Positions 46,707 to 61,963 of a stretch of 64,000 nt of DNA are shown here, piece after piece. The stretch is from NCBI RefSeq assembly GCF_003261055.1, contig NZ_CP030074.1, positions 868,001-932,000 on the forward strand. Direction: 5' to 3'. A program made the translations under genes and the position numbers. The DNA is from Streptomyces cadmiisoli. GTDB lineage: Bacteria > Actinomycetota > Actinomycetes > Streptomycetales > Streptomycetaceae. The notes below the pieces were generated by a model. The model was given only the letters and a program-made list of their open reading frames with translations. It searched no databases and was not told the DNA's origin. Within the stretch, counting starts at the first letter, position 1. Each line of letters starts with the position of its first letter.

Positions 46707-46879
46707 GGGGCGTCACCGCGCACCGGCTGGGCACCCCGTCTCCCCGACATGCCCAGCAGGCTACGCAATCAGAAGAAGCACCAGGTCAGCACTCCATTGC
46801 GCCGACATCGCGATCATTGCGCAGCCGTGTGCACCGCGTCCTTGCGCAGCCCTGCTCGTGGACCGACGAGGAGGACCCA

Positions 46880-47240
46880 TGTAGGCACTGCGCATCGACC
46901 CGGACGCCACGGTCACGGACCTCAAACTGCCGCGCCCGATGCGCGCATCGAGATCCAGGAACACGTCGGTTCCGACGCCGTCGACCAAGGGTTCACCACC
47001 GGGGTGCCGTTGTGCACATTCACGGCAACGGGCCGAAGCAAGGACTTCCCCAGAACCTGGCCGCATGGGCCTGGGCGAGTGCCTGGCGTGGCATGCTCCC
47101 TGTACCCGCTGGCCGGTCCCATCGTCATCACGGGCCGAACCGCGAGCGGGGACATGGCGGCACTCGACAGCGACCTTGCGCAGCACGCCAAGGCCGTTGC
47201 GCAGACCGTCCGCGACACGCTGTCTGTTGTCTCACACTGA
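46880..47240 (+). pseudogene. Small protein remnant (DUF3846-like), frameshifted
   Basis: Across frames the stretch reads ALRIDPDATVTDLKLPRP, then ARIEIQEHVGSDAVDQG, then LAGPIVITGRTASGDMAALD and AQTVRDTLSVVSH. The start motif and the GPIVITGxxxxGD end resemble small DUF3846-type proteins of actinobacterial mobile elements. At least two frame changes are needed and the apparent first codon is preceded by a stop. The assignment is tentative. Confidence 0.35.
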
Positions 47241-47442
47241 AACGTCCAAGATCTCTCTCACCGGAATGTCACCTGGAACGCTCTGTTGAGCTGGTGTGTT
47301 GGTTCTATGACGTGACATTGCGTGAAACGTGATCGTGGCAAGTCACGCAAAAGCGCAGGACATTCCGATGCGAATCGCGTAGAAGATTTGATCTTGGTTC
47401 GTGGGTCCGGAGTACCTGTCTTGGTCTATGGGCTTGAAGCGC

Positions 47443-48370
47443 GGTACATCACTACTTCTCCGCGTGTGCGAGCGTCACGGTCTTCGGTGACGGTTCTGCG
47501 TGTGCGCGCTGGCCTTCGAGGCGGGGCTGCGGATTGCGACCCGCCGCGGTACATCTCTGCGTTCACAGACCGAACCCGCCCTGGCTGGCCGTGAGGGGGG
47601 CGAGTGCTGCTGCACCTCCGCGTATGCGGAATGGGTGAAATGCCCCCGAGGTATGTGGGTGCTGCTGACTGGTGCATCTCTGCGGGTGTGCGGACTCGAC
47701 GCCCGCGGGCTCTTGGATGTGTCCGTCACGTCTGGTGCATCTCCGCGCGCGGAGTGGACAGGGTAACGATCCGCGCGTTCGTTCCGTCGATCGGTGCATC
47801 CCTGCGCGTGCGGGTGGACGCGCGCCAGTGGGACTTACCCCGACTAACGGTAGGTGTATTGCTGCGCTGCGGGGTGAACTCGGCATCGCAACCAGCCTCG
47901 AAGTGCCCGAACGGTGCATCTCCGCGCGCGGGGTGGATCCGCATCTGAGGAAGCGGCAGGGCGGACGGACCGGTACATCTCCGCGTGTGCAGGTGGGATC
48001 TTCCTCGGCACGCTGGTAGGTCGCGTCGTACGGTGCATCTCCGCGCGTGCGGTGTAGGCATTAGTCCAGGTGGCGCAGATTCCCGACGAGGCCGGTGCAT
48101 TGCATCTCTGCGTGTGCGGAGTGGACGAGACGGCCAGGAGGGCTCCCGGGGCGGTCATCGATGCATCTCCGCTCGTGCGGGGTGGCCGGTATGGGCGATG
48201 TCGATGACCCGGGCGATCACGGTGCATCTCCGCTCGTGCGGGCTGGACGCCGGAAACTGCGAGGCGATGTGCGACACGGCCGGTGCATCTCCGCGTGTGC
48301 GGGTGGACGCCGACACCACCGAGGTCGACTTCCTCGGCACCGGTGCATCTCCGCTTATGGGGGACGGACT
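47443..48370 (-). CRISPR. Degenerate type I-E CRISPR array, about 16 repeats
   Basis: Plus-strand repeat copies begin (GGTGCAT-like) at 47443, 47492, 47548, 47609, 47671, 47734, 47793, 47853, 47913, 47972, 48032, 48094, 48160, 48221, 48282 and 48342, mostly 59-62 bases apart. That gives about 28-nt repeats and about 33-nt spacers. On the minus strand the core is CCCGCACACGCGGAGATG followed by CACC, very like known I-E repeats. Repeats nearest cas3 (48221-48309) are best conserved. Those at 47443 (6-base insertion), 47492 (deletion) and 48094 (TGCAT duplicated) are damaged. This gradient suggests transcription on the minus strand from a leader beside cas3. Confidence 0.88.
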
Positions 48371-48592
48371 CTCTTTGACCTGCGCTTGTGTGGTGACTTT
48401 GCCCTTGCGTGATGTCGGTGTGGGCAGGGTGACTGAGGCAGTCTGTCCTGTTTCCAGAGCTGATATTGCGTTCTTTGTAGCTATTTCACTCAAGAGGGCG
48501 GTTGTGGGAAGCAGTCGGCGACCTGCCGGGGCGTGGCGGGGTAGAGGGCGACGTGTTCGGTTTCGGTGGCTGTCAGGAGGGGGAGCGCAGGC
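48371..48592. promoter_or_regulatory. Probable CRISPR leader and cas3 promoter region
   Basis: The 222 bases between the best-conserved end of the array and cas3 include an A+T-richer core (GCTGATATTGCGTTCTTTGT at 48460-48479). Divergent transcription of the array (minus) and cas genes (plus) from here fits the repeat orientation. AGGAGGGGGAG at 48576-48586 is the cas3 ribosome-binding site. Confidence 0.55.
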
Positions 48593-51499
48593 GTGGGGGT
48601 AGTGGAAGACAGCAGGATCAACGGGCTGACGTTGTGTCTGTGGGGTAAGTACTGTGCCCGTCATGGGCTGATCTATCCGGTGCTGTTCCACATGCTCGAT
48701 ACGGCTGCGGTGGCGGGGGAGTTGTGGGACCGGCTACTGACCGGGCCGCAGCGTGACACTGTCGCGGCGGGGCTGGGGATGAGCCGGGCGCAGGCCTGCT
48801 GTGTGGTGATGTTCATCGCAGGCCTGCATGATTTGGGCAAAGTGAGCCGTTTCCAGGCCTGCGAGCCGGTTGCGTGGGCACGGGTCAGCGATGAGCTGCG
48901 GGCCGATGCGGGCCGCTGGAGACTGATGCGGCACGAGCGGGCTTCCGTGCATGCCCTGGTCGGGATCCTCGCGGAGATGGGCTACGAACTGTCCGGTGAT
49001 GCCAGCCCGGCCGTGCGGATGGCGCAGATTGCCGGCGGTCACCATGGACGTTTCCCGCAGCTCGATGTGCACGGCGCGGCCAGCGTCCGGCGCGTGCAGG
49101 TCGATCTCGGCGGCCGGCTGTGGCAGGAGATCCGTTACCGCTACGCCGCTCAGGTGCGGCATCTGACGGGTGCCGAAACGGTGCCGGGGCAGGTGTCGGT
49201 CACGGCGGCGGTACTGATGACCGGGCTGGTGATGGCCGCCGACCGGCTGGCCAGCCAGCGCAAGGTGTGGGCGCCGCGGGCGGATGCGCCCGCCTACGGT
49301 GCTGCCCAGCATTTCGCCTGGGCCCGATGGAAGGCCCGTGAAGTGGTGGAGGAGTCACGGCTGGCGCGGATCGACCTGCCGGTGCTGCCGTTTATCACCG
49401 CGCATCCCCACCTGCGCGCCCCGAACCCACTTCAGGCATCAATCCTGGACAGCCTTCCCCAGCTGGCCGATGCACGGGGCGCCGGGATCGTGCTGGTCAC
49501 CGACGGCACTGGCGCGGGCAAGACCGTCACTGCCCTGGAGGCGTCCCGCATCCTCAACGACGCGTGCGGCAGCCGGGGACTGTGCTTCCTGCTGCCCACC
49601 ACGGCCACCGCGGACGCCGCCTACGACACGCTGTGCGGCTATCTTCATGCGCACCGTCCCACCCCGGCCGTGCTCACGCTCGTGCACAACCACAGCTGGC
49701 TGAACGCCGCCTACTCCGATGAGATGCTCGCCCCCGGCGACGTCCCCACCTGCACCGGCGACGACCCCCACACCGACGAAGACGATGACGACGACTGCCG
49801 GCCGCCAGGCAACGGTGGGAAGAGCGGGACCTGGCGGCGGATCCTCCCGGACGGCTGGGTACGCGGCTGGGACCGTGCACTGCTGGCCCAGTTCACCGTC
49901 GCCACCGTCGACCAGGCACTGATGGCCGCGCTCCCGGTACGCGACAGTGCCCTGCGGATGCTGTCCCTGTCGGGCAAGTGCGTGGTCGTCGACGAGGCGC
50001 ACGCGCTCACCGCGTTCAGCCGGCGCATCCTGCTGCGGCTGCTGCACTGGCTCGGTAGCCTGCGCACTCCGGTGGTCGTGCTCTCGGCGACACTGCCGGG
50101 ACAGACGGCACGCGAACTCTTGTACTCCTACCTGGCCGGTGCCGGACACCGCAGACGCGATCTGATCGCGCGCGAGGACGAGTTCACCGTGCCCTACCCG
50201 GGCTGGCTGTTCGCCGACGCCGCCACTGCCCAGACTGCTGTCATCCTTGGTGATGTACGCACCCGGCACGCCGCCGCGCAGCAGCGCACCATCACACTCC
50301 GCCTGGCCCCGGCGCGCTACCGGCGCCTCGAGGTTCCGGCGCGCCGGGCCAGAACGGGGGAGCGGCTGGCCCGTATCGCCGCCGCAGTCGCCCCCGTGGC
50401 ACGGCTGGGCGGATGCGCCGTCATCGTGTGCGCCACGGTCGCCGATGCCCAGGACACCTACCGCTACCTGCAGCAGTTCCTTGAATGGCCCGCAGGCCCG
50501 CAAGACCTGCTGCTGGTCCACGCCCGTTTCCCCGGCCACTGCCTCGAACGGGCGCTGGCCCGGGTCCGTACCCAGCTGGGCCCGTTCGGGCCGCGCCCCG
50601 AACGGCTGGTGGTGGTCACGACCAGTCTGCTGGAACTCAGCCTCAACATCGACGCCGACCTCGTGGTCAGCGACCTCACCTCGCTGGCCCGGCTGATCCA
50701 GCGCGCGGGACGGCTGTGGCGCTTCGAACAAGCCTGGCAGGACGAACGTCCCCCCGGCATCACCCCGCGTCCGCCCTGGATCCGGGCCCGCGGCCCCCGC
50801 CTCACCGTCCTGCACCCTATCGACCATGACCGCACCACCCTGCTGCCCGAGGCCTGGGCCGCCACTGACCACCCCTACCTCCAGCACGCCAGCGCCCACC
50901 TGCTCACCCTGCCCGGCCACCAGCGGATCACCCTGCCCGAGCAGGCCCAGCACCTGGTCGAACTCGTCCACCAGTCCGGCCTGCCGGCCACCTGGTCCGG
51001 CCCGCTCGCCGCCCTCCACGAGCAGCACCTGGCCGCCGAGCGGGCCGAGGAGCACACCAGCACCATCCATCTCATCCCCCCGCACGACCGTGTCGCCTCC
51101 CTGGCCGACCTGCACCGCCAGAAACTGACCGCCGCGCAGGCCGCCACCCGCCCGCACGACCGGCCCCGCCGCGTCCTTGCCTCCTACCGGCGTCCCGGCC
51201 ACCCGCCCACCCTCGACACAGCCGGCCGCTTTCCCCTGCTCCAGGGACCTCACCTGTGCCCAGCCGCCATCCGCACCGTCCTGCAGCACACCGTGCCGGT
51301 CCCCAGCGCCTGGGCCGCTGCCGCTACCCAGGACCACCAGAGCCCCGAAGCCTGGCAACAGCACCCCCTGCTCGCCGACCTCGTCCTCCTCCCGCACGAT
51401 CCGGACCGTCCGCAACCAGTCCAGCTCGGCCACCACCTGCTGCACATCGACGACGAACTCGGCCTCATCCACGGCGAAACGGCCCCCGCAGCGCACTGA
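48593..51499 (+). CDS. cas3: Type I-E Cas3 nuclease-helicase
   Basis: A 968-residue protein from a GTG 6 bases after AGGAGGGGGAG. The HD domain has FHMLDTAAVAGELWD, HDLGK (His79, Asp80), GGHHG and an ADRLAS motif. The SF2 helicase has Walker A GTGAGKT (Lys310), DEAH (from Asp467), LSATLP and QRAGRLWR (from Gln703). The C-terminal Cas3 domain extends to AAH. Cas3 is recruited by Cascade to unwind and degrade DNA. The canonical motif V EQSLDLD reads ELSLNID here, losing the Gln and one Asp. All other catalytic residues appear present, so it may still be active. It starts the cas locus divergently from the array. Confidence 0.94.
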   Translation: MGVVEDSRINGLTLCLWGKYCARHGLIYPVLFHMLDTAAVAGELWDRLLTGPQRDTVAAGLGMSRAQACCVVMFIAGLHDLGKVSRFQACEPVAWARVSDELRADAGRWRLMRHERASVHALVGILAEMGYELSGDASPAVRMAQIAGGHHGRFPQLDVHGAASVRRVQVDLGGRLWQEIRYRYAAQVRHLTGAETVPGQVSVTAAVLMTGLVMAADRLASQRKVWAPRADAPAYGAAQHFAWARWKAREVVEESRLARIDLPVLPFITAHPHLRAPNPLQASILDSLPQLADARGAGIVLVTDGTGAGKTVTALEASRILNDACGSRGLCFLLPTTATADAAYDTLCGYLHAHRPTPAVLTLVHNHSWLNAAYSDEMLAPGDVPTCTGDDPHTDEDDDDDCRPPGNGGKSGTWRRILPDGWVRGWDRALLAQFTVATVDQALMAALPVRDSALRMLSLSGKCVVVDEAHALTAFSRRILLRLLHWLGSLRTPVVVLSATLPGQTARELLYSYLAGAGHRRRDLIAREDEFTVPYPGWLFADAATAQTAVILGDVRTRHAAAQQRTITLRLAPARYRRLEVPARRARTGERLARIAAAVAPVARLGGCAVIVCATVADAQDTYRYLQQFLEWPAGPQDLLLVHARFPGHCLERALARVRTQLGPFGPRPERLVVVTTSLLELSLNIDADLVVSDLTSLARLIQRAGRLWRFEQAWQDERPPGITPRPPWIRARGPRLTVLHPIDHDRTTLLPEAWAATDHPYLQHASAHLLTLPGHQRITLPEQAQHLVELVHQSGLPATWSGPLAALHEQHLAAERAEEHTSTIHLIPPHDRVASLADLHRQKLTAAQAATRPHDRPRRVLASYRRPGHPPTLDTAGRFPLLQGPHLCPAAIRTVLQHTVPVPSAWAAAATQDHQSPEAWQQHPLLADLVLLPHDPDRPQPVQLGHHLLHIDDELGLIHGETAPAAH

Positions 51500-51942
51500 A
51501 GCCCGCCGCAAGACAGGCCGCAGAATCCCGACGCAGCCACCGCCGGCCTCACCCTGCCCGCGGAGCGCCACCACTGCCGAGGGACATGCGAACCCGGCTA
51601 CAGCGCACGGCGGTGCAAACGGCGCGCACCGTCCCCCGTTGCGCGCCTGGCCCGCACTCCAGCCGTTGATCACACTAGTTCGCAGGCTCTGTACCGCGGT
51701 TCACCACGGATGCTTTCCTTGATCCATGTGACGGTGCGTATCGCACGTCACGGAATGTTTCCGTCCGTCGTCTCTGCGGCCCCTGCGATCCGCTCCCGCC
51801 CCAGGACGTCCTCCACGGACCCAGCCCGGGCGCGCCCCCCTCGCGCCGCATCCAGTCCATAGCGCTCTGCCCGAGCGCGTCGCCCAGGCCTCCTCGCCAT
51901 GGCCCCGCACAGCCCGGCAGGAAGCGAAGAGGAGTGTTCGCG
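51500..51942 (+). promoter_or_regulatory. cas3-cas8e intergenic region with inverted repeat
   Basis: A 443-base gap separates cas3 from the Cascade genes, so a separate promoter is likely. An inverted repeat at 51728-51751 (arms GTGACGGTGCG and CGCACGTCAC around TAT) could bind a regulator. GAAGAGGAG precedes the cas8e ATG. No gene was recognised here. Confidence 0.45.
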
Positions 51943-53523
51943 ATGCCACCCCCGAGTTTCCGGATCGACCTGAGCCCCTGTATCCCGGTGCGCTGCGGCA
52001 AGCACATCGAGTACGTCGGCTTACGTGAACTCCTCACGGACGCACACCGCATCGACGACCTGGCCCTGCCCCTGCCTCCCGCCCGGTCCGGCCTCTACCG
52101 GGTCCTGGCCGCGATATGCGCCGCCGTCACCGAACTCGACGACCCGGACCAGCCGATCAAGGAGTGGCTGGACCACCGCGCAGAGCTCCTCAGACGCGAA
52201 GACGGCTTCGATACCGATGCCGTGCACGCCTACTTCGACGCCGATCCCGGCGCCTTCGACCTCTTCCACCCCACGCGCCCGTGGTGGCAGGACGCGGCAC
52301 TGGCCGTCCAGTGCCCCAAACGCAGCGGGATCAACTCCCTCATCTACGGCCGCGCGGCCGGCCGCAACCTGGTCTGGTTCAACCCCCGCCACACCGACAC
52401 CGATCCCCAGCCCGTGCCCACCAGGGAAGCGCTGTGGAGCCTGCTCGCCTACCACTACTACGGACCCTCCGGGCGGGCCACCACCCGGACCGTCGATGGA
52501 GTCACCAGCGGGCAGCTGAAAGCCGGACCGCTGCGCTCCACCGTCTCCTTCCACCCCCGCGGCCGCACCTTGTACGAGACCCTCCTGCTGCACCAGACGC
52601 CCTACCGCGGCGACGATCAGGCCCCCGGCAGTGACGCCTGCCCCTGGCAGGAACCCCCTGCCCATCCCCTGCGGACACCCCATGCGGCGACCTGGCCCAA
52701 GCGGCTGCTGACCGGCCGCTCCGTGCACGCGGCGCTCCTGGTCCCGGACGCCAGTGGCGAACACGTCACCGACGCCTACCTGACCTGGGCCACCCAGCAC
52801 CCGCTGCTCGAGGCCACCGATCCCTACCTCGTCTACGACATCGACCCCAAGGCGCCCGCGGAACGCCGGCGCAGCCCGCGCCGCGCGAACGCCGACCACG
52901 CCCTGTTCCGCGCCCTGCCCGCGCTGGCACTCGCCGGTGATGAACACCGGCCAGGCTGCCGGCCCGAGGCATTCACCACCATCAACAGCCTTCCCAAGGA
53001 CACGCGCGCCCGCCTGCGCGTGTGGGTGTGCGGATTCGACCAGGAAGGCCAGGTCAACAACCGTATCTGGTACACCAGCCTGACCCCGCCGATCTGGCCG
53101 CTGGCCCAGGAGAACGACCCCGTCAAGGCCTCCCGCATCGTCGAGTGCTGCGCCGCCGCGGAGACTCTGGGCGCCGCCCTGCGCCGACAAGCCGACCAGG
53201 CATGGAAGGACACCGGCCTCACCCCGCCCCCGGCCAAGGGCGGCGGGAAAAGAGACACCAGCCCGTGGGCCGGACAGGCCCTCGCCGGCTACTGGCCGCG
53301 CGCCGAGCAGGCCTTCTGGGAACTCCTCGACGACACACGGTCCGCCTACGGGGTGTTCGCCGCCACGGCCATCACCGCACTGTCCGAGACCACACGGGAC
53401 GCCCTCAACCGCCTGCCCAAGGCCGGCCCGGCCCTGGCCCGCGCCGTGCAGAGCCTGCGACGCGCCGGCACACCCCCCGACGACACCCTCCGCCCGACCA
53501 AAGGACCGCATGCCCAGCCGTGA
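51943..53523 (+). CDS. cas8e: Cascade large subunit Cas8e (CasA/Cse1)
   Basis: A 526-residue Cse1-type protein. The N-terminus reads FRIDLSPCIPVRCGKHIEYV, with GLRELLTDAHRIDDLALP typical of the family. FDLFHPTRPWWQDAA, LVWFNPRHTDTDPQPVPTRE and WSLLAYHYYGPSGRATTR are recognisable family blocks, and the C-terminal third is a four-helix bundle. It recognises the PAM and recruits Cas3. The ATG at 43 (51943) is preferred over the GTG nine bases earlier because of GAAGAGGAG. Its 3' end overlaps cse2 by 14 bases. Confidence 0.92.
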   Translation: MPPPSFRIDLSPCIPVRCGKHIEYVGLRELLTDAHRIDDLALPLPPARSGLYRVLAAICAAVTELDDPDQPIKEWLDHRAELLRREDGFDTDAVHAYFDADPGAFDLFHPTRPWWQDAALAVQCPKRSGINSLIYGRAAGRNLVWFNPRHTDTDPQPVPTREALWSLLAYHYYGPSGRATTRTVDGVTSGQLKAGPLRSTVSFHPRGRTLYETLLLHQTPYRGDDQAPGSDACPWQEPPAHPLRTPHAATWPKRLLTGRSVHAALLVPDASGEHVTDAYLTWATQHPLLEATDPYLVYDIDPKAPAERRRSPRRANADHALFRALPALALAGDEHRPGCRPEAFTTINSLPKDTRARLRVWVCGFDQEGQVNNRIWYTSLTPPIWPLAQENDPVKASRIVECCAAAETLGAALRRQADQAWKDTGLTPPPAKGGGKRDTSPWAGQALAGYWPRAEQAFWELLDDTRSAYGVFAATAITALSETTRDALNRLPKAGPALARAVQSLRRAGTPPDDTLRPTKGPHAQP

Positions 53524-54121
53524 CGAACGCCGCTGCCACTACGACGCCTTCGTCGCTCACGTCCGCAGCCTGTGCAGCACCCCACGCATCCGCAGCCTCC
53601 TCGAGGACGGCCGAGGACGGCCCCCCACCCAGTGCCCGCGCATGGACGCCTACCTCGTCAAACCCTGCCAAGGCTTCGGCGCCCGCCGCGCCCACTACAC
53701 AACCGCCTCCCTGATCGCCCTGGAACGTCCCGCCCCGGACTGGACCGAGCAGGCACCCTCCGCCCCACTCCCGCACCCCGGCCTCACCCCGGACGATCTG
53801 CTGGAGCGTGAACCGGCACCGCCGGACAACTGGGCACGACGTCCCAACCTCGGCCGAACCCTGGCCGACGCCGCCCGCGCACACCCCCACACCGCAGCAG
53901 GCTGGCAACGCGAAGTGGAAGTGATGGGCGTGCTCTCCGCCGACCTGCTGCACACCCGACTGCCCCACACCGTCCAGCGCCTCCTCAGCCTCGGCCTGGC
54001 ATACGACGTCGCCGTGCTGCTCGAAGACCTCGCCCAATGGGACTTCGAACCGCTGGAAGTCGCCGGCCGCTGGCGCCACTCCTTCTACCTGACCGTCCCC
54101 GACACCCTCCTGGAGCTGTGA
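53510..54121 (+). CDS. cse2: Cascade small subunit Cse2 (Cas11e)
   Basis: A 203-residue helical protein. It has family features RPPTQCPRMDAYLVKPCQGF near residue 40, YTTASLIALERP, then LGRTLADAARAHP and LLHTRLPHTVQRLLSLGLAY toward the C-terminus. Two copies stabilise R-loop formation in type I-E Cascade. The start overlaps cas8e and the TGA shares a base with the ATG of cas7e (TGATG), showing translational coupling. Confidence 0.9.
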   Translation: MPSRDERRCHYDAFVAHVRSLCSTPRIRSLLEDGRGRPPTQCPRMDAYLVKPCQGFGARRAHYTTASLIALERPAPDWTEQAPSAPLPHPGLTPDDLLEREPAPPDNWARRPNLGRTLADAARAHPHTAAGWQREVEVMGVLSADLLHTRLPHTVQRLLSLGLAYDVAVLLEDLAQWDFEPLEVAGRWRHSFYLTVPDTLLEL

Positions 54122-55314
54122 TGCACACCCGCTACCTCGACATCCACGTGCTCGAACACCGGCCGCCGTCCTGCCTGAACCGGGATCGGCACAACATGCC
54201 CAAGACCATGACCGTCGGCAACGCCACACGCATCATGGTCCCCGCCCAGGCACAACGACGCCCCCAGCGCCTGGCACTGGAGACCACGCTCGAAGAACCC
54301 GCCGCCCGCACCCGCAACCTCCCCCCACAGGTCGCCCAGGCGCTGCGCGCAGCAGGCTGGCCCGAGGAACTGGCCCGCTTCGCCGCCGGACAGATCGCCC
54401 GCTCCGCCACTACCAAAGGCCTGGAAACCAATCCCAAGGAAGACCACCGCACCAACGCCATGCTCCTGGTCGCCGCCGGCTCCATCGTCGAGGACCTCGC
54501 CGAGCTGTGCACCGCTCACCGCGCCGACCTCGAGAAGGGCCTGGCCCGCCTCCAGAAGAAGAAGGAGCCCGACGACAGCGACGACACCAAGCCCGGCCGC
54601 GGCAAGCCGCCCGCCCTGCTGCCCACCGACCAGGTGGCCGCCTGCCTGAACCGTCCCACCGCCACCATCCACCTCTTCGGCCGCATGCTCGCCGGCCTGA
54701 CAGACGCCGACGTCCCCAGCGCCGTACAGACCGCCCCAGCCCTCACCACGCACACAAGCGACCTGCAGCCGGACTTCGTGACCGCAGTGGACGACTGGCA
54801 GGACCCGGGCGACCGCGGCAGCGCCTTCATGGACACCACGTTCCTGACCAGCGGAGTGTTCTACCGGTTCACCACGGTCAACCTCACCGACCTGACCCGC
54901 AAACTCGATGGCGACCAGAATCAGGCGCTACGCCTGGCCGGACTGTTCATGCGCGCCGTCATCATGACCGTGCTCCCCGCGAAGCAGACGTCCACCGCCC
55001 CGCACACCGTGCCCGACCTCGTCGCCTACGCCGTCCGCGACGGCCGCCCCGTCACCTACGCCAGCGCCTTCGAACAGCCCGTGCAAGCCACCCCCAAAGG
55101 CGGCTACCTCACCCCCAGCTACCACGCCCTGGACACCTGCGCCGGCATCACACATCGGCTGACCGGAACCAGCGACCTCGTCGGCCACGGCTACGCCACC
55201 GCCCAGAACAACGACGCAGCCCACCTCGGCACCCGGCACGACAGCTTCGACACCCTCATCGCCGCAGCCCTCGCACACGCCGCCACCGGCCAGCCCCCAG
55301 CCAACGCCGCATGA
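54121..55314 (+). CDS. cas7e: Cascade backbone Cas7e (CasC/Cse4)
   Basis: A 397-residue RAMP protein beginning YLDIHVLEHRPPSCLNRDRH. It has the Cas7e block KTMTVGNATRIMVPAQAQRR, DTTFLTSGVFYRFTTVNLTD, and AVIMTVLPAKQTSTAPHTVP with its Pro/Lys-rich loop. It ends GTRHDSFDTLIAAALAHA. Six copies normally form the crRNA-binding spine. A variable insertion rich in Lys and Asp (EKGLARLQKKKEPDDSDDTK) lies near residue 140. The ATG overlaps the cse2 stop. Confidence 0.93.
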   Translation: MHTRYLDIHVLEHRPPSCLNRDRHNMPKTMTVGNATRIMVPAQAQRRPQRLALETTLEEPAARTRNLPPQVAQALRAAGWPEELARFAAGQIARSATTKGLETNPKEDHRTNAMLLVAAGSIVEDLAELCTAHRADLEKGLARLQKKKEPDDSDDTKPGRGKPPALLPTDQVAACLNRPTATIHLFGRMLAGLTDADVPSAVQTAPALTTHTSDLQPDFVTAVDDWQDPGDRGSAFMDTTFLTSGVFYRFTTVNLTDLTRKLDGDQNQALRLAGLFMRAVIMTVLPAKQTSTAPHTVPDLVAYAVRDGRPVTYASAFEQPVQATPKGGYLTPSYHALDTCAGITHRLTGTSDLVGHGYATAQNNDAAHLGTRHDSFDTLIAAALAHAATGQPPANAA

Positions 55315-56102
55315 GCGCCCTGCTCCTGCGCCTCGCAGGCCCCCTGGCAGCCTTCGGCACCAGCGCCGCCTTCCACGACCGCGACACCGCCCCCCACCCC
55401 ACCCGCTCCGCCCTGATCGGCATGTTCGCCAACTGCGCCGGACGCGAACCCCACCACGCCCTCGCCCCCTTCACCGAGCTGCCCGGCCAGCCCCGCTACC
55501 AGGACCTGGGATTCCTCATCCGCATCGACCGGCCCGGCACGCCCCACACCGACTTCCACACCGTCGGCGGCGGCCACCCCCGCGACAAGCAACTGCGCAC
55601 CAGCGGCGGCCCCCAACGCCCCGAGGCCCAGTCCACTCTCATCTCCCACCGCCACTACCTCGCCGACGCGGTCTTCACCGTCGCCGTCACCGGCCCCACC
55701 CCACTCCTGCAGAGCATCGCCGGCCACCTCCGCCACCCCCACAACGCTCCCTACCTCGGCCGCCGCACCTGCGTCCCCACCGAACCCCTCGTCCTGGCCA
55801 CCGCCATCCCGGACCCCCTGGACGAACTCACCTGCCGCGCCCCGCTCTCCCTCGCCCGACCACCCCGCCCCCACACCTCCACCGTCAACGTCGACTTCAT
55901 CCACGAAGACCCCCCACCCAACCCCACCACCGCCATCGACCACTACGAACTGTGCGACCAGCCCGTCGACTTCACCCCCGGCCACCGCCGCTACCACCCC
56001 CGCAACGTGTGGCGCACCCGCATCCCCCTCCCTGCCGCCCTCTACGCCGGCCCCGACCCCCTCACCACCCTCGCCGCCTACATGCACCCGGAGCAGCCAT
56101 GA
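55311..56102 (+). CDS. cas5e: Cascade subunit Cas5e (CasD)
   Basis: A 263-residue RAMP protein: LLLRLAGPLAAFGTSAAFHD, then APHPTRSALIGMFANCAGRE, TDFHTVGGGHPRDKQLRTSG, STLISHRHYLADAVFTVAVT, and PYLGRRTCVPTEPLVLA. These are the standard Cas5e blocks. It caps the 5' handle of the crRNA. The ATG overlaps the cas7e stop (ATGA) and its own stop overlaps the cas6e ATG, so the genes are tightly coupled. Confidence 0.92.
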   Translation: MSALLLRLAGPLAAFGTSAAFHDRDTAPHPTRSALIGMFANCAGREPHHALAPFTELPGQPRYQDLGFLIRIDRPGTPHTDFHTVGGGHPRDKQLRTSGGPQRPEAQSTLISHRHYLADAVFTVAVTGPTPLLQSIAGHLRHPHNAPYLGRRTCVPTEPLVLATAIPDPLDELTCRAPLSLARPPRPHTSTVNVDFIHEDPPPNPTTAIDHYELCDQPVDFTPGHRRYHPRNVWRTRIPLPAALYAGPDPLTTLAAYMHPEQP

Positions 56103-56770
56103 CCCCCACCGCCACCCTCACCCGCATCCGCCTCAACACCGCCCACCACGCCGTACGCCGTGACCTGGCCGACCGCGTCCAGCTCCACAAAACCCTCATG
56201 CGCCTGACCCCCGGAACCCCCAGCCCCCACCCCCGCCGCGACGCCGGACTCCTCTTCCGCCTCGACACCGACCACGACGAGCCCACCCTGCTCGTCCAGA
56301 CCACCCAGCCACCCAATCTCAACGGCCTGCCCGCCCGCTACGGCACCCTTCTCGCGGCCCGCGACCTCACCCCCCTCCTGCACGCCCTCACTCCCGGCCG
56401 ACACGTCCGCTACCGCATCACCGCCGTCCCCGTCCGCCACCTCCCCGGCACCCCCTGCGGCCGACGACCCGACGGCCGCCTCCTGCGCCGCCGCGGCACC
56501 CCGACCGCCCTGCACGGCCACGACGCCGCCCAGTGGTGGCAGCGCAGAGCCAGCCAGTCCGGCCTCGCCCTCACCAGCATCAGCCTCACCCCCCGCACCT
56601 TCGAACGCTCCCCGCACGCCCCCCACCGGCCCGGACTCGACCACCAGCTCGTCCAGTTCGACGGACACGCCCGCATCACCGACGCCCATCTCCTCGCCCA
56701 GAGCATCTGCCGCGGCATCGGCCGCGCCCAGTCCTACGGCGCAGGCCTACTCAGCCTCGCCCCCGCCTGA
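56099..56770 (+). CDS. cas6e: crRNA-processing endoribonuclease Cas6e (CasE)
   Basis: A 223-residue RAMP ribonuclease. The N-terminus reads LTRIRLNTAHHAVRRDLADR, followed by LHKTLMRL, whose His corresponds in position to the catalytic His of Cas6e enzymes. The Gly-rich C-terminal motif GIGRAQSYGAGLLSLAP binds the repeat hairpin. It cuts pre-crRNA at the base of the repeat stem; the CCGC/GCGG stem in the array repeats is its expected substrate. In ordinary I-E loci cas1 and cas2 follow. Here a transposase gene follows after 45 bases. Confidence 0.92.
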   Translation: MTPTATLTRIRLNTAHHAVRRDLADRVQLHKTLMRLTPGTPSPHPRRDAGLLFRLDTDHDEPTLLVQTTQPPNLNGLPARYGTLLAARDLTPLLHALTPGRHVRYRITAVPVRHLPGTPCGRRPDGRLLRRRGTPTALHGHDAAQWWQRRASQSGLALTSISLTPRTFERSPHAPHRPGLDHQLVQFDGHARITDAHLLAQSICRGIGRAQSYGAGLLSLAPA

Positions 56771-56815
56771 CCCCGCACCACCTCACGCGGGCAAAGCACC
56801 CGAGAGGACATCCCT

Positions 56816-58462
56816 GTGATCTTCGAGCAGTCGCCACGCGACACCAGCGTGCGCCGGGCAGCCGTCGGCCGGCTCATGTTCCTCGTCCAGCACAACAGCC
56901 TCACCACCGACCACATCAAGACCGTCGCCGAGGCTTTCGGAGTCCACCCGCGCAGCGTGCGCCGGTGGATGGACAACGCCGCACAGCACAACGGCCGCTA
57001 CACCCCCGGGCGCCGCGCCTCCTTCACTCTCACCCAGGAGATGCGCGACGCCGTCGCCCTGTTCTGCGGCAACATCGCCGCCGCCTACCGGGACCTGCGT
57101 AAACGAGGCAGCCTGGGAGACGACCCCGTCTGCTACGCCACCTTCCACCGCGCCGTCACCACCGCCTACACCCCCGGCTTCCTCGCCGGCCTGCGCGGCG
57201 GCGAGAGGGAACGCCGCAAGTTCGACGTCCACTTGACACGGGGCGTCGGACACCGCAATCAGGCATGGGAAGGCGATCACGTCGAAGCGAGCGTCTGGGT
57301 CAACGTCAACGGACACCGCCGCAAACCCTGGATCACCTGGTTCATCGACTGCGCCAGCGACGCCGTCTGCGGCCTGTCCGTCTCCGCACAGACCCCCAGC
57401 CGGGAAAACATCCTCCTCGCCGTGCGATCCGCTGTCCTGCGAGGAGGCAATCACGGCCCTTTCGGAGGCAGCCCCGGCCTCGTCCGCATCGACAGAGGAA
57501 AAGACTTCCTGAGCGACACCGTCGACGCCGCCTTCGGCGTCCTCGGCGTCCGCGTCGTCGACCTGCCTCCCAGGCACCCAGAGCTCAAGGGAACTGTCGA
57601 AGCCCTCAACAACGCCGTCAAAACCATGCACTTCCCCGGCCTCCCCGGCTACGTTCACGCCCCCCGAACCAGCCGGCGCACCAAACCAGACCCCGATGAA
57701 CGCCTGCTGACCTACGAGGCATTCATCCGCCACCTCCTCGCATGGGTCCACGAGTGGAACCACGAGCACCGCATCCGCACCCGCGACAACCGCACCCCAC
57801 ACGAGCTGTGGAACAACGACCTCACCCCCATCTACGACCCCGACCCCGCAGACCTCCACTTCACCCTCGAAACCCATCCCACCCCCCTGACGATCAACTC
57901 AGACGGCGTTCACTGGGGGAAGAAACGCCGCTACCTCGCTCCCTACATGCAAGGCCTTGGCGGCACCAAGGTCGTGCTGCGCTACATGCCCCGCCAGGAA
58001 CGCTCCGTCGAGCTCTACGACGCCAAAGACGGCACTTACCTGGGCCCAGCCGTCCTGCAAAACGAAGCAACCCCCCAGGAACGACGTGAGGTACGGCGCG
58101 CCGCCGACCGAGAAGCCGGCCGCCTGCGCACCGCCCTGGACAAGGCGAACCGCCAGCGCGAGGAACGCTTCGAGGCCGACACCGTCCCCACCACCCCCCG
58201 CCCGACCAGCGACATCACCCAGGAACAAGCAACCGAAATCCTCAACGGGCACCGCCAGGACGCACACGCCCGCGAAACACGCCCCGACCTCATCCCGCTG
58301 CCCAACCCCACCGCCACCTGGAACAACACCGCAAACCCGGCCGAAACCCAGCTCGGCTCCACGGCCCCTCTGCTCCCGCCGCTGCCCAACCCCACCGACT
58401 CCTGGCACGCCACACCCCTGTCCAGCACACCCGAGGAGCCCACCGATGAACCACACGATTGA
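56816..58462 (+). CDS. TniA/TnsB/Mu-type DDE transposase linked to cas genes
   Basis: A 548-residue retroviral-integrase-type transposase. N-terminal HTH segments (TVAEAFGVHPRSVRRWMDNA) lead to an rve core with Asp154 (WEGDHVEASVWV), Asp226 (VRIDRGKDFLS) and Glu262 (ELKGTVEALNN). This is an intact D,D35E triad. A C-terminal beta-barrel region follows (GVHWGKKRRYLAPYM), then a basic helix (RREVRRAADREAGRLRTALD) and a Pro/Thr-rich tail with a repeated LPNPTxxW motif. In TniA/TnsB relatives this tail contacts the ATPase. The GTG has GAGAGGAC 7 bases upstream and lies 45 bases after cas6e; the end overlaps the ATPase gene by 17 bases. Confidence 0.88.
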   Translation: MIFEQSPRDTSVRRAAVGRLMFLVQHNSLTTDHIKTVAEAFGVHPRSVRRWMDNAAQHNGRYTPGRRASFTLTQEMRDAVALFCGNIAAAYRDLRKRGSLGDDPVCYATFHRAVTTAYTPGFLAGLRGGERERRKFDVHLTRGVGHRNQAWEGDHVEASVWVNVNGHRRKPWITWFIDCASDAVCGLSVSAQTPSRENILLAVRSAVLRGGNHGPFGGSPGLVRIDRGKDFLSDTVDAAFGVLGVRVVDLPPRHPELKGTVEALNNAVKTMHFPGLPGYVHAPRTSRRTKPDPDERLLTYEAFIRHLLAWVHEWNHEHRIRTRDNRTPHELWNNDLTPIYDPDPADLHFTLETHPTPLTINSDGVHWGKKRRYLAPYMQGLGGTKVVLRYMPRQERSVELYDAKDGTYLGPAVLQNEATPQERREVRRAADREAGRLRTALDKANRQREERFEADTVPTTPRPTSDITQEQATEILNGHRQDAHARETRPDLIPLPNPTATWNNTANPAETQLGSTAPLLPPLPNPTDSWHATPLSSTPEEPTDEPHD

Positions 58463-59225
58463 CACCACCACCCCAGCCAACGACCACTACCTCGGCCTGG
58501 CCGGAGCCAGCATCCTGCCCACCACCGCCTCGCGCCTGACCCAGCGCCACCTGACCACGGTCATCAAAGCCCAAGCCCTGCTCTGCATCCACGGCGACGT
58601 GGGACTCGGCAAAACCTTCGCCATCAACACCAGCCTGCGCGACCTCGCCCCTGACAACACGCTCTGGCTCGAATGCCGCAAGGGGGCCCCGCTCGGTACT
58701 CTGCGTCCCGCCCTCTATCGCGCGCTGGCGCTGCCCGGAGAACCTCCCGCCAAAGGCGATGCGTTCGACCAACTCCTCGTACAGGCCTTCGCCGAACAGC
58801 ACCGTGTCCTGGTCTGCGACGAAGCCCAGGGCCTGACCAAGACCTCCCTGGAGTACCTGCAGACTCTCTGGGAGAACAGGCGCACCCAGCTGACCGTCAT
58901 CCTCGCCGGCGGCGACAACTGCCTCCAGCGCATCCGCAGCTGCTCCGGTCTCTTCTCCCGTATCCCGATCTACCAGCAGTACCAGCCGCTCACCCCCGAC
59001 GAAGTCCTGGCCTTGATGCCGACCTACCACGCCTTGTGGCAGAACGTCGCCGCCGACGACCTGATGTGGATCAACGACGCCGCGTGTCACGGCAACTTCC
59101 GCAACTGGGCCAAGATCACCTTCCACATCCAGGACATCCTCGAACAGCACGCCGAGACCGCCTGGTTCAGCCGCGACACGGTCCGCATGGTCCTCACCTT
59201 CCTCGACAGCAGCATCCGTAGCTGA
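58446..59225 (+). CDS. TniB/TnsC/IstB-type AAA+ ATPase linked to cas genes
   Basis: A 259-residue AAA+ protein. It has Walker A HGDVGLGKT (Lys56), Walker B VLVCDEAQ (Asp125), sensor-1-like VILAGG with an N-containing segment (GGDNCLQRI), and an Arg-containing FSRIPIYQQY block typical of TniB/TnsC. In transposons of the Tn5053, Tn7 and Mu types this ATPase marks the target DNA and activates the DDE transposase. The ATG at 58446 overlaps the transposase gene by 17 bases, so the two are co-translated. The frame remains open for about 60 codons past its TGA. No tniQ or tnsA homologue follows. Confidence 0.85.
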   Translation: MNHTIDTTTPANDHYLGLAGASILPTTASRLTQRHLTTVIKAQALLCIHGDVGLGKTFAINTSLRDLAPDNTLWLECRKGAPLGTLRPALYRALALPGEPPAKGDAFDQLLVQAFAEQHRVLVCDEAQGLTKTSLEYLQTLWENRRTQLTVILAGGDNCLQRIRSCSGLFSRIPIYQQYQPLTPDEVLALMPTYHALWQNVAADDLMWINDAACHGNFRNWAKITFHIQDILEQHAETAWFSRDTVRMVLTFLDSSIRS

Positions 59226-59592: not shown

Positions 59593-60750
59593 GTGGATCA
59601 GCGCGGCACTCAGGGAGAAAGGGCGCGGCCCGCTCCCGACGGGCAGCCCATGTTGTGGCAGGCTGCCGACGACCTGCCCGCCACAGACATGCCCTTCCAG
59701 GTCGCCTTTCTCGCCCTCGGCGCCGCGCGCGGTCTGGGAAGCAAGGGCCTGCACGCGCTGGTCCGCGAACACCGGGAGCAACTCGGCCGGGTATGGGAGG
59801 CTCCTCCGGTCCGTCTGGCCGCAGAGCTCGCCCATGCGAAAGTCCCCGCCGCCCGCAAGGTCGCAGACGAGATCAGCACCTACCGCTCCGAGCTGCTGAA
59901 AACGGCCCGGGTCAAGGCCGACGAACTTACTCGGCGCAACATCCACCTCATCGGCCCCTCGGCCCTGCCGGCCCGGCTTGCCGAACTCCCCGGCGGGCCC
60001 CTGTGGCTGTTCGTCGAGGGCGACCCCCGAGCCCTGTACGAGGGCCCGTACGTCGCGGTCGTCGGCACCCGGGACATCACGCCCGACGGGGTGCGCGCCA
60101 CCGAAGCCGCTGTGCGCACCCTGGCTGCCTACCCCATCACGCTGGTGTCCGGCCTCGCCAATGGCGTCGACGCGGTCGCGCACCAGGCCGCGCTGCGCGA
60201 CGGAGTACGCAACGTCGCCTTCCTCGGCCACGGCATCGATATCGTCTTCCCTGCCGAGACCGCGGACATCCGTGCCCGTATCGTGCGCACCGGCGGTGCG
60301 GTGGCCAGCGAATACCTGCCCGGCGAGCACTACCGCAAGGCCCAGTTCGTCCAGCGCAACCGCCTCCAGGCCGGCCTCGCGGACATCGTCGTCGCCGCCG
60401 AGGGCCAGCACACCGGCGGCACCGCGCACACCGTGCGCTTCGCCGCCACCTACCACCGGCCGATCATCGGCTTCACCTGGCCCGGCGCCGGCGACCTGAC
60501 CGACCTGATTGACACCGAGCCCACCGGCCAGCTCATCGAAATCTTCACCACGGCCGGACGGCGCACCCTGGACGCCCTGTGCCGCAGCACGGCCGACTCC
60601 TACGGACACACCACCTTCGGCCTGAGCCTGGTCGAGCGCCAACTCGGCCGCGAGGTGGAACTGCGTGCCCTGCCTCCCGAAGACCTCAAACGGCTACGGC
60701 AGCGCCTGGACGACCTGCTGGGCCAGGAAGACGGTGGTGATGCCGGCTAA
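59593..60750 (+). CDS. shosA: DprA/Smf-like protein, ShosA-type
   Basis: A 385-residue protein from a GTG. The N-terminal 130 residues are helical (FQVAFLALGAARGLGSKGLH). The DprA Rossmann-like domain follows: PYVAVVGTRDITPDGVRATE, the GSGLA-like ITLVSGLANGVDAVAHQAAL, FLGHGIDIVFPAE, GGAVASEYLPGEHYRKAQFV and RNRLQAGLADIVVAAEGQHT. DprA proteins bind single-stranded DNA in transformation. Its tight pairing with a HAD/phosphoribosyltransferase gene (11-bp overlap) is instead the layout of the ShosTA anti-phage system, where the DprA-like partner counteracts the toxic one. That assignment rests on architecture. Confidence 0.78.
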   Translation: MDQRGTQGERARPAPDGQPMLWQAADDLPATDMPFQVAFLALGAARGLGSKGLHALVREHREQLGRVWEAPPVRLAAELAHAKVPAARKVADEISTYRSELLKTARVKADELTRRNIHLIGPSALPARLAELPGGPLWLFVEGDPRALYEGPYVAVVGTRDITPDGVRATEAAVRTLAAYPITLVSGLANGVDAVAHQAALRDGVRNVAFLGHGIDIVFPAETADIRARIVRTGGAVASEYLPGEHYRKAQFVQRNRLQAGLADIVVAAEGQHTGGTAHTVRFAATYHRPIIGFTWPGAGDLTDLIDTEPTGQLIEIFTTAGRRTLDALCRSTADSYGHTTFGLSLVERQLGREVELRALPPEDLKRLRQRLDDLLGQEDGGDAG

Positions 60751-61963
60751 GGCAGTCCTCTTCGACTACAAGACCATCCTCCTCAAGCACGGCACCCCCA
60801 CGGCCACCGGGACGGCTGCGCTGCTGCACAGCCTGGTCGCCAAGGGCCTGCAGTGGTGCATCCTGTCCACCGACCCACTCTCGCCGGACCAGAAAGAACA
60901 ACTCCAGCAGCTCGGCTATCCCGAGCCCAGCCTGCTGATCGATCAGTCCCACATAGCCGGCGGCAAAAGGCGCGGCTCGCCGGCCTGGATCGACGCCGTC
61001 ACCACCGCTCTGCATCTGCAGCGGTATGAACTGCTGTACGTCGGCTGCACAGCCATGGACTGGCGCACCGCCATCAACTCCGGCGTCATGTACCAGCACG
61101 CCGCATGGGCCGCCTCGATGCCCAGCGGCACCACCTCGCTCGTCGCACGCACGCCTGGCGACGTGGACCGGTTCCTGGAGATGTTCCTCTCCAGCGACCC
61201 GAGCTGGTCACACCGCGCTGACCAGGGAAACTGGTCGCTGCGCTCACTGCTGTCCGCCTCGGCCCTGCTGCCCTCGACCTCGCCCGGCCCCACCTTCAGG
61301 CTCCAGGACGTCTTCACCTACAAAAAGCCGGTGAAAATCGCAGACGCGGACGCCCGGAGCGTTCTCATGCTGTTCGTCCTCGCCAACGCCTATCTGGAAG
61401 ACCTGATCCCCGCCAACCCCTACTTCTGCATCTACCCCAGCAGCACGAGCGGCCAGGTCAGCGAGCGGCTCAAGACCTATCTCGACAAGGCAGCCGCACT
61501 ATTTCACGGCTACTACCGCGAGGACCTCCTTGTCCGCGCTGTCGACGCCCCGGACACCAGCCTGGAACGCTGGAAGGCCAGCCAAGGCCAAGCCGCCCAG
61601 AACATCTCCATCGCCACGCAGGCCCAGACGGTGCACCTGGGGTCCGGCTACCGCGGCAAACTCGGCACGAAAACCGTCGTCGTCCTCGACGACTTCACCA
61701 CCCACGGCATGTCCCTGGAATGGGCACGCCTGCTGCTGACCGCAGCCGGCGCCCAGCGGATCGTCATGCTCACCGTTGGCAAGTACGGCAGCCGCCACAC
61801 CCGCTACGACCTCAAAGACCCCAGCACGCTGGCCCCCTACCAGCTCAACAGCCTCACTGCCGACAGTTTCACCACGACATCACTGACACCCGTGTTCGAC
61901 CCCCAGGCTCAAGACCGCCTCTACCAGCACCTTGTCACCAGCCTGGACTCCTCCAAGGATTGA
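60740..61963 (+). CDS. shosT: HAD plus phosphoribosyltransferase protein, ShosT-type
   Basis: A 407-residue two-domain protein. The N-terminal 150 residues are HAD-like (KAVLFDYKTILLKHG; WCILSTDPLS; YVGCTAMDWRTAINSGVMYQ), with Lys in place of the second Asp of the DxD nucleophile motif, so phosphatase activity is doubtful. The C-terminal half is a type I phosphoribosyltransferase with the PRPP motif VVVLDDFTTHGMS (Asp317, Asp318 equivalents). In ShosTA this protein is the toxin that perturbs nucleotide metabolism. The ATG overlaps the dprA-like gene by 11 bases. Confidence 0.76.
   Translation: MPAKAVLFDYKTILLKHGTPTATGTAALLHSLVAKGLQWCILSTDPLSPDQKEQLQQLGYPEPSLLIDQSHIAGGKRRGSPAWIDAVTTALHLQRYELLYVGCTAMDWRTAINSGVMYQHAAWAASMPSGTTSLVARTPGDVDRFLEMFLSSDPSWSHRADQGNWSLRSLLSASALLPSTSPGPTFRLQDVFTYKKPVKIADADARSVLMLFVLANAYLEDLIPANPYFCIYPSSTSGQVSERLKTYLDKAAALFHGYYREDLLVRAVDAPDTSLERWKASQGQAAQNISIATQAQTVHLGSGYRGKLGTKTVVVLDDFTTHGMSLEWARLLLTAAGAQRIVMLTVGKYGSRHTRYDLKDPSTLAPYQLNSLTADSFTTTSLTPVFDPQAQDRLYQHLVTSLDSSKD

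Follow-up and report, generated by a model that had tools for sequence, protein, structure and literature searches.

A type I-E CRISPR telomeric transposon in Streptomyces cadmiisoli and its possible part in the replacement of replicon arms

Described CRISPR transposons and the S. cadmiisoli locus

Among transposons that carry clustered regularly interspaced short palindromic repeat (CRISPR) systems, the CRISPR-associated transposons (CASTs) of type V-K have Cas12k as effector, I-F3 and the other Tn7-like type I CASTs have two transposon ends, and a telomeric transposon has a single transposon end, its other end being a telomere. Here we analyze a type I-E cas operon joined to a transposase and an ATPase in a window of 64,000 bp of Streptomyces cadmiisoli DNA (bases 868001-932000 of contig C2, 969,901 bp, in a genome of two contigs, C1 and C2). 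We give about an even chance to the reading, drawn from sequence, that this is a telomeric transposon that would use Cascade-Cas3 guided by CRISPR RNA (crRNA) to destroy competing arms, which would then be replaced by its own through single-ended transposition.

Gene identities were obtained by Pfam and NCBIfam profile scans of the window's open reading frames (ORFs). The operon is complete, in the order cas3-cas8e-cse2-cas7e-cas5e-cas6e-tniA-tniB, with open frames and all genes on the + strand:

48566..51499, + strand: cas3 (alternative start 48593), Pfam and NCBIfam; HD nuclease and helicase motifs intact
51934..53523, + strand: cas8e (cse1), Pfam and NCBIfam
53510..54121, + strand: cse2 (cas11), Pfam only
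54115..55314, + strand: cas7e, Pfam and NCBIfam
55311..56102, + strand: cas5e, Pfam and NCBIfam
56099..56770, + strand: cas6e, Pfam and NCBIfam
56816..58462, + strand: TnsB/TniA-like DDE transposase (Mu-transpos_C)
58446..59225, + strand: TnsC/MuB-like AAA+ ATPase (TniB)

Profiles and sequence thus agree with a preliminary description of the locus on the order from cas3 to cas6e, the 45 bp between cas6e and the transposase, the 17-bp overlap of transposase and ATPase, the transposase triad (D154, D226 and E262, invariant across an alignment of 30 sequences) and the Walker motifs of the ATPase (GDVGLGKT and VCDEAQ). Cas3 had been described as retained, unlike in classical CASTs, and its motif residues bear this out: it aligns to the solved Cas3 4qqw (E 4.4e-102), and the HD, Walker, DEAH and QRxGR residues are invariant among 10 related sequences, so that the HD nuclease looks intact. 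The tail of the transposase (residues ~494-530) holds two PLPxP[ST]xxW motifs and may bind a partner; at least one such motif occurs in 12 of the 30 aligned transposases, the window's included, all within the first 14 rows of the alignment.

The preliminary description had also reported neither cas1 nor cas2. For Cas1 this holds across the window's genome, in a search that was positive in 9 of 14 control genomes, and Cas1 was likewise undetected in 10 of 11 related genomes, the exception being a weak match in G253; for Cas2 it holds among the operon ORFs scanned, no genome-wide Cas2 search having been made. The reported lack of a recognizable TniQ stands as well, with no TniQ/TnsD match in the 10 operon and neighboring ORFs scanned and a negative whole-genome search that is weak, its controls being silent.

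The transposase and ATPase resemble those of the type V-K CAST (ShCAST). TnsB of 7svw, which we take to be the ShCAST protein, is the best match of the transposase profile among solved structures (E 8.9e-32), and the predicted structure of the ATPase (mean predicted local distance difference test score 85.7) has MuB and Scytonema hofmannii TnsC (7plh, 7m99) as its closest folds. Unlike the type V-K CAST, the window element has a full Cascade and Cas3, and one transposon end plus a replicon end. It shares Cascade genes and a TnsB/TnsC-type pair with I-F3 and the other Tn7-like type I CASTs, but these use TniQ-TnsD and most have inactivated effectors according to a 2025 classification (PMC12669027; all statements on it here refer to the part of its text available), whereas the window's Cas3 looks intact. 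A I-A CRISPR system in Mu-like transposons, described in the same source, likewise involves a Mu-like transposon and no TniQ-TnsD; it differs in subtype, and telomere association is not mentioned for it in that part of the text.

The closest described system is I-E5, which PMC12669027 presents as a TniQ-less type I-E CAST variety found in telomeric transposons, one of two TniQ-less varieties that it counts as CASTs; its Cas3 HD domain is given as active, possibly with a dual function, with citation of Hsieh et al. (Science 2025). The window element is like I-E5 in its type I-E effector genes, the lack of a detected TniQ/TnsD, the retained Cas3 HD domain, its telomeric-transposon position and its single end, and in a comparison of stated features rather than of genes, no I-E5 feature given in that part of the text differs. 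Because these features are present at the sequence level we assign the element to I-E5, and its layout, which the preliminary description had taken to be distinct, is not new. By its sequence it qualifies as a telomeric transposon, though a different telomeric element now holds its terminal arm. As a CAST by function it falls short on two counts, insertion at a fixed distance (230-5216 nt over six junctions) and a TniQ-type adaptor. The spacer targets, the 5'-AA protospacer adjacent motif (PAM) and the pattern of lost arms described below may be additions; the targets and the lost-arm pattern were not found in the available part of PMC12669027 and may already be in Hsieh et al. (2025).

A single transposon end and the arm lost beyond it

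The inner boundary of the element was located by empty sites and by a hidden Markov model (HMM) of the transposon end:

46749..47240, + strand: reading frame interrupted by the element; in empty-site plasmids an uninterrupted hypothetical gene crosses the junction
47225..47424, + strand: transposon end, 5'-TGTTGTCTCACAC..., approximate 200-bp end region, from empty sites and HMM

Coverage of the window's inner flank is 80% or more in six plasmids. The site is uninterrupted in all five of these that were read, homology ending at 47224 in three and at 47222 in two; the gene that spans it is hypothetical and 441-495 nt long in the four annotated plasmid records, and one of the five records is labeled circular. 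The HMM, built from G383, G028 and L017 with the window excluded, matches window positions 47228-47379 (E 6.8e-6), and its match coincides with the G474 boundary. The two chromosome-end copies of G383, left and right, and likewise those of G474, share 99.9-100% identity on the outer side of a sharp boundary that lies upstream of the array, and their inner flanks differ; in G028 the contig begins exactly at the transposon-end base. TTCTC/TCTCA and TGAGAA-type motifs recur at 23-bp spacing in three of the ends inspected and are decayed in the window. Tandem copies of the transposon end at L017:39-223 and 898-1087 suggest a nested insertion. For the right copy of G474 (G474R) three empty sites were read; they fall within a LysM gene that belongs to a Tad/conjugation cluster on plasmids. 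Two different elements, those of the window and of G474R, have inserted into, or next to, one and the same LysM/Tad conjugation cluster found in Streptomyces plasmids.

The paired end repeats expected around 44-62 kb did not materialize, a repeat search there yielding the CRISPR array and no convincing end pair. One transposon end only is found, and the opposite side runs to the replicon end. The locus lies ~45 kb from the right end of C2, whose ends are inverted repeats of ~12.8 kb with 99.9% identity, and the terminal inverted repeats on the genome's own contigs make it likely that the replicon is linear. The terminal-repeat segment of C2 recurs on C1, ~15 kb in from either end, and the tips of C2 are therefore probably incomplete. 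This terminal-repeat contig end, the transposon end at 47225 and the degenerate array upstream of cas3 were missing from the preliminary description.

A second element, a cas-less tniA-tniB, occupies all four ends (left and right of both C1 and C2). At every one of these ends its first base is the same (TGTGAGG...), on the upstream side of its own tniA at a distance of ~0.5 kb, and this shared start also speaks for linear replicons. Its inner flanks are of three kinds, those on the left and right of C1 being identical over the 55 kb compared; its immediate neighbor on the right of C2 is a truncated DEAD/helicase-associated gene, which is also broken into two frames. The genome itself therefore shows elements with one transposon end and a replicon end opposite. 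The outer element, inside which the I-E element is found, took over the terminal arm of the latter at C2:957140. Two successive TniB-like ATPases characterize the second element, which runs from 27696 outward at both ends of C1 and is placed at C2:957140 and 12764.

The order of cas6e, transposase and ATPase proved to be conserved, as anticipated. In 21 of the 80 genome-contig loci of the family cas genes stand directly upstream of tniA, and 17 of these 21 match all eight genes; L009, L015 and L024 are cut by a contig end, and L074 was left out of the count (cas5/cas6 matches ~8 kb away). L030 keeps only part of cas5 plus cas6, and because 10 kb of upstream sequence is present its operon looks reduced. 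A phylogeny of 82 transposases, in which long terminal branches were flagged for L020, L032, L016 and L018, groups the cas-linked rows in a single clade of 23 members (support 100/100); the sole row of the clade without cas, L033, begins 66 bp from its contig end. Of 392 genomes sampled from the genus, 101 contain the family at E 1e-30 or better, and G552, with a transposase match that passes E 1e-119, has no cas matches. All 17 mapped cas-linked copies, on single-contig chromosomes, the window's contig and one plasmid record, are oriented to the nearest record end, at 14-336 kb (median 82 kb). The G118 and G605 copies were excluded from this count; they appear mid-chromosome because their records start at dnaA (1.1 and 1.2 kb).

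It is very improbable that an independent Tn5053/Mu-like element simply came to rest beside a decayed I-E locus. The degenerate window array and the failure to find Cas1 would suit such a history, which is already contradicted by the conserved gene order, the single clade and a transposon end that sits outside both the array and the cas genes. Neither of the outcomes that the preliminary description gave as refuting it came about, and the earlier view that cas genes and transposase are parts of one element is upheld by the end at 47225 and by the clade.

The elements sit inward of sites that their own arrays recognize, and the recognized arm is lost. On the lost side an own-spacer match occurs at six of the seven junctions for which an uninterrupted homologue shows the arm, with junction-to-protospacer distances of +230 (G474L), +388 (G626), +902 (G383L), +1752 (G474R), +2916 (G253) and +5216 nt (window); the lost arm of G383R has no own-spacer match. 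On the retained side, own-spacer matches were found at 0 of 13 junctions (800-bp flanks). Since Cas3 looks intact, a retained protospacer should be self-destructive, and either Cas3 attack with selection or attack coupled to single-ended transposition would give the lost-arm pattern. No homologue reaching the junction was found for the flanks of G691 and G596 among the plasmid matches listed, nor in the genome pool for those of G034, G560, G566 and G605.

The specificity of these matches was assessed by a rank test in which 28 arrays were compared on lost arms up to 6 kb and the results joined by Fisher combination. None of the 27 other arrays equals or betters the resident one at the window and at G474R, against 2 at G253, 3 at G626, 6 each at G383L and G474L, and 27 at G383R. 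Fisher p is 0.018 over the seven junctions; when each element contributes a single junction it is 0.0065 or 0.0585, according to the choice (0.015, and 0.005 or 0.052, before duplicate removal). These p values are indicative, since homologues and thresholds were picked after looking, spacers are shared and the L011/G034 pair was left in; of the 32 arrays five are second copies, and the test excludes four such copies and L010. On the window's lost arm the strong match is present in two of five plasmids (europaeiscabiei, CdTB01), the other three reaching at best 23-24/32, and on that of G474R in one of three (NBC_01724), the other two reaching 23/33.

These distances bear on whether the element is a true CAST, in which Cascade at a telomere-proximal protospacer would recruit TniB/TniA without TniQ, the end would be inserted nearby and Cas3 would have a separate role in defense. 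Such a mechanism would fit the complete Cascade whose linkage to a TnsB/TnsC pair is conserved in one clade, the spacers aimed at terminal genes, which are the expected landing zone, and the designation of I-E5 as a CAST variety with possible dual function in the available text of PMC12669027. We nevertheless consider it unlikely, since the distance from junction to protospacer varies from ~230 to 5216 nt, 13 retained flanks lack an own-spacer match and a Cas3 with its nuclease intact should cleave the site to which it is guided. RNA-guided insertion at a fixed distance was thus set aside as the principal explanation, the retained flanks being at background, and the preliminary suggestion of RNA-guided insertion finds neither a fixed spacing nor a retained protospacer.

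Targets of the arrays and the proposed arm replacement

To characterize what the arrays recognize, 196 redundancy-filtered spacers from 20 arrays were compared with 59 family loci without adjacent cas genes (0.98 Mb), the score being matches minus mismatches and the threshold for a strong match 22. At this score 29 of the 196 spacers match, whereas the controls, three shuffled sets and three sets of 33-mers from cas genes, each gave 0-1 of 196. Only strong matches were counted, because a lower score of 18 lets 33-mers from cas genes (43-53) come close to the spacers (56). The result was replicated with 12 further arrays, three of them second copies of other arrays, in which 7 of 76 new spacers match versus 0 in six control runs. 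As the loci were chosen by transposase, the enrichment holds only within this subject set. Eight of the 36 protospacers lie in tniB, three in tniA and 25 in other genes; the latter were scanned as 20 distinct ORFs (9 helicase-associated (HA), 4 helix-turn-helix, 1 TniB, 1 SbcC-like and 5 without family), with target ORF L051:740-1444 outside the 20. An A precedes the protospacer at position -1 in 27/36 and AA in 20/36, over a background of 15% A (A in 4/7 in the replication set alone), and the PAM for these arrays is 5'-AA.

Searches of plasmids gave similar targets. The G118 array matches helicase-associated genes, many ~2 kb from the record end, and tniA, and the G253 array matches helicase-associated genes (not all near ends), tniA and ATP-binding proteins. 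The array spacers are thus enriched for genes of telomeric transposons (tniA, tniB) and terminal helicases. Phage defense was considered and rejected for the three arrays searched, the window array reaching only E 0.3 at best in phages and the G118 and G253 arrays giving nothing at E 0.01.

The window's own array lies upstream of cas3:

47449..48370, - strand: degenerate type I-E CRISPR array, ~60-61-nt period, left boundary uncertain
47879..47911, - strand: spacer identical (33/33) to four plasmid records, 3.2-5.4 kb from the record end
48128..48158, - strand: spacer matching a T2SS-F/Tad gene (29/32 and 28/32) in two of the five empty-site plasmids
48371..48565, - strand: presumed array leader, from position only; promoter activity is presumed

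The strand was assigned by the match to what we take to be the usual form of the I-E repeat, which would place the leader on the cas3 side. Two of the four plasmid targets of the 47879..47911 spacer were seen to be linear, and AA precedes the match in one of two; the target of the 48128..48158 spacer is 5.2-5.3 kb past the insertion point, on the lost side. More generally the window spacers show similarity to Streptomyces plasmid genes (mobF, Tad/T2SS-F and genes near the ends), in some cases at weak E-values only, and no window spacer reaches score 22 in the cas-less family loci. Self-targeting by this array was rejected, there being no full-length spacer match elsewhere in its own genome among the 40 matches listed. 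In the L142 (G118) array, ~2.4 to 0.18 kb upstream of cas3, a leader-like sequence recurs, as if short arrays had been duplicated.

Such targets would also be expected if the I-E module were passenger immunity against linear plasmids and rival telomeric transposons, with the transposase alone picking sites and the lost-side matches reflecting a shared habitat. Besides the mobF, Tad/T2SS-F and near-end plasmid genes recognized in the window and the terminal helicases and tniA matched by the G118 array, this explanation draws on ShosTA-like defense genes downstream in the same arm, cas-less relatives that occupy replicon ends without CRISPR, and a rank test that is only modest. We regard it as unlikely, given a cas-tni order kept through deep divergence in one clade and the fact that, of 28 arrays, those of the window and of G474R rank first on the lost arms of their own elements.

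We prefer the combined reading, arm destruction and then capping. crRNAs would steer Cascade-Cas3 to the terminal arms of competing linear replicons or rival telomeric transposons, Cas3 would destroy the recognized arm, and single-ended transposition would cap the shortened replicon with the element's own telomere arm. The activity of Cas3, the coupling of cleavage to insertion or their co-selection, the capping of a shortened arm and the source of the spacers are matters that we infer. We are more doubtful of arm replacement that is itself RNA-guided, with Cas3 shredding the target arm and the transposase of the same element capping the replicon, a programmable exchange of chromosome ends and not an insertion.

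Several observations weigh against the preferred reading. The signal from the lost arms is modest: at G383R every other array equals or betters the resident one, as do 6 of 27 at both G383L and G474L, the lost arms are inferred from homologues of ~66-94% flank identity, and the best matches carry 2-6 mismatches. The L011/G034 duplicate pair is still in the rank test, and several arrays share some spacers. The absence of matches on the retained side is weak alone, because other arrays rarely match those flanks either (0.26 of 13 expected). A rule for the direction of Cas3 was dropped, the strand of the protospacer relative to the junction being mixed. Cas1 went undetected in the window's genome and in 10 of 11 related ones, and the window copy may be inactive, given its decayed repeats and the arm overtaken at C2:957140.

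The base-precise end, the PAM, the named targets and the natural empty sites make a little-characterized class of TniQ-less CRISPR transposon testable. Should guides and an active Cas3 indeed drive the replacement of ends, RNA-guided genome rearrangement would have a mode unlike CAST insertion, one that would help explain the exchange of ends among linear Streptomyces replicons and the competition of mobile elements for telomeres.

Directly 3' of tniB is a ShosA/ShosT-like pair (59593-61963), probably defense cargo of the arm:

59593..60750, + strand: ShosA-like (DprA-like) gene, probable defense cargo
60743..61963, + strand: ShosT-like gene (phosphoribosyltransferase-like), partner of ShosA

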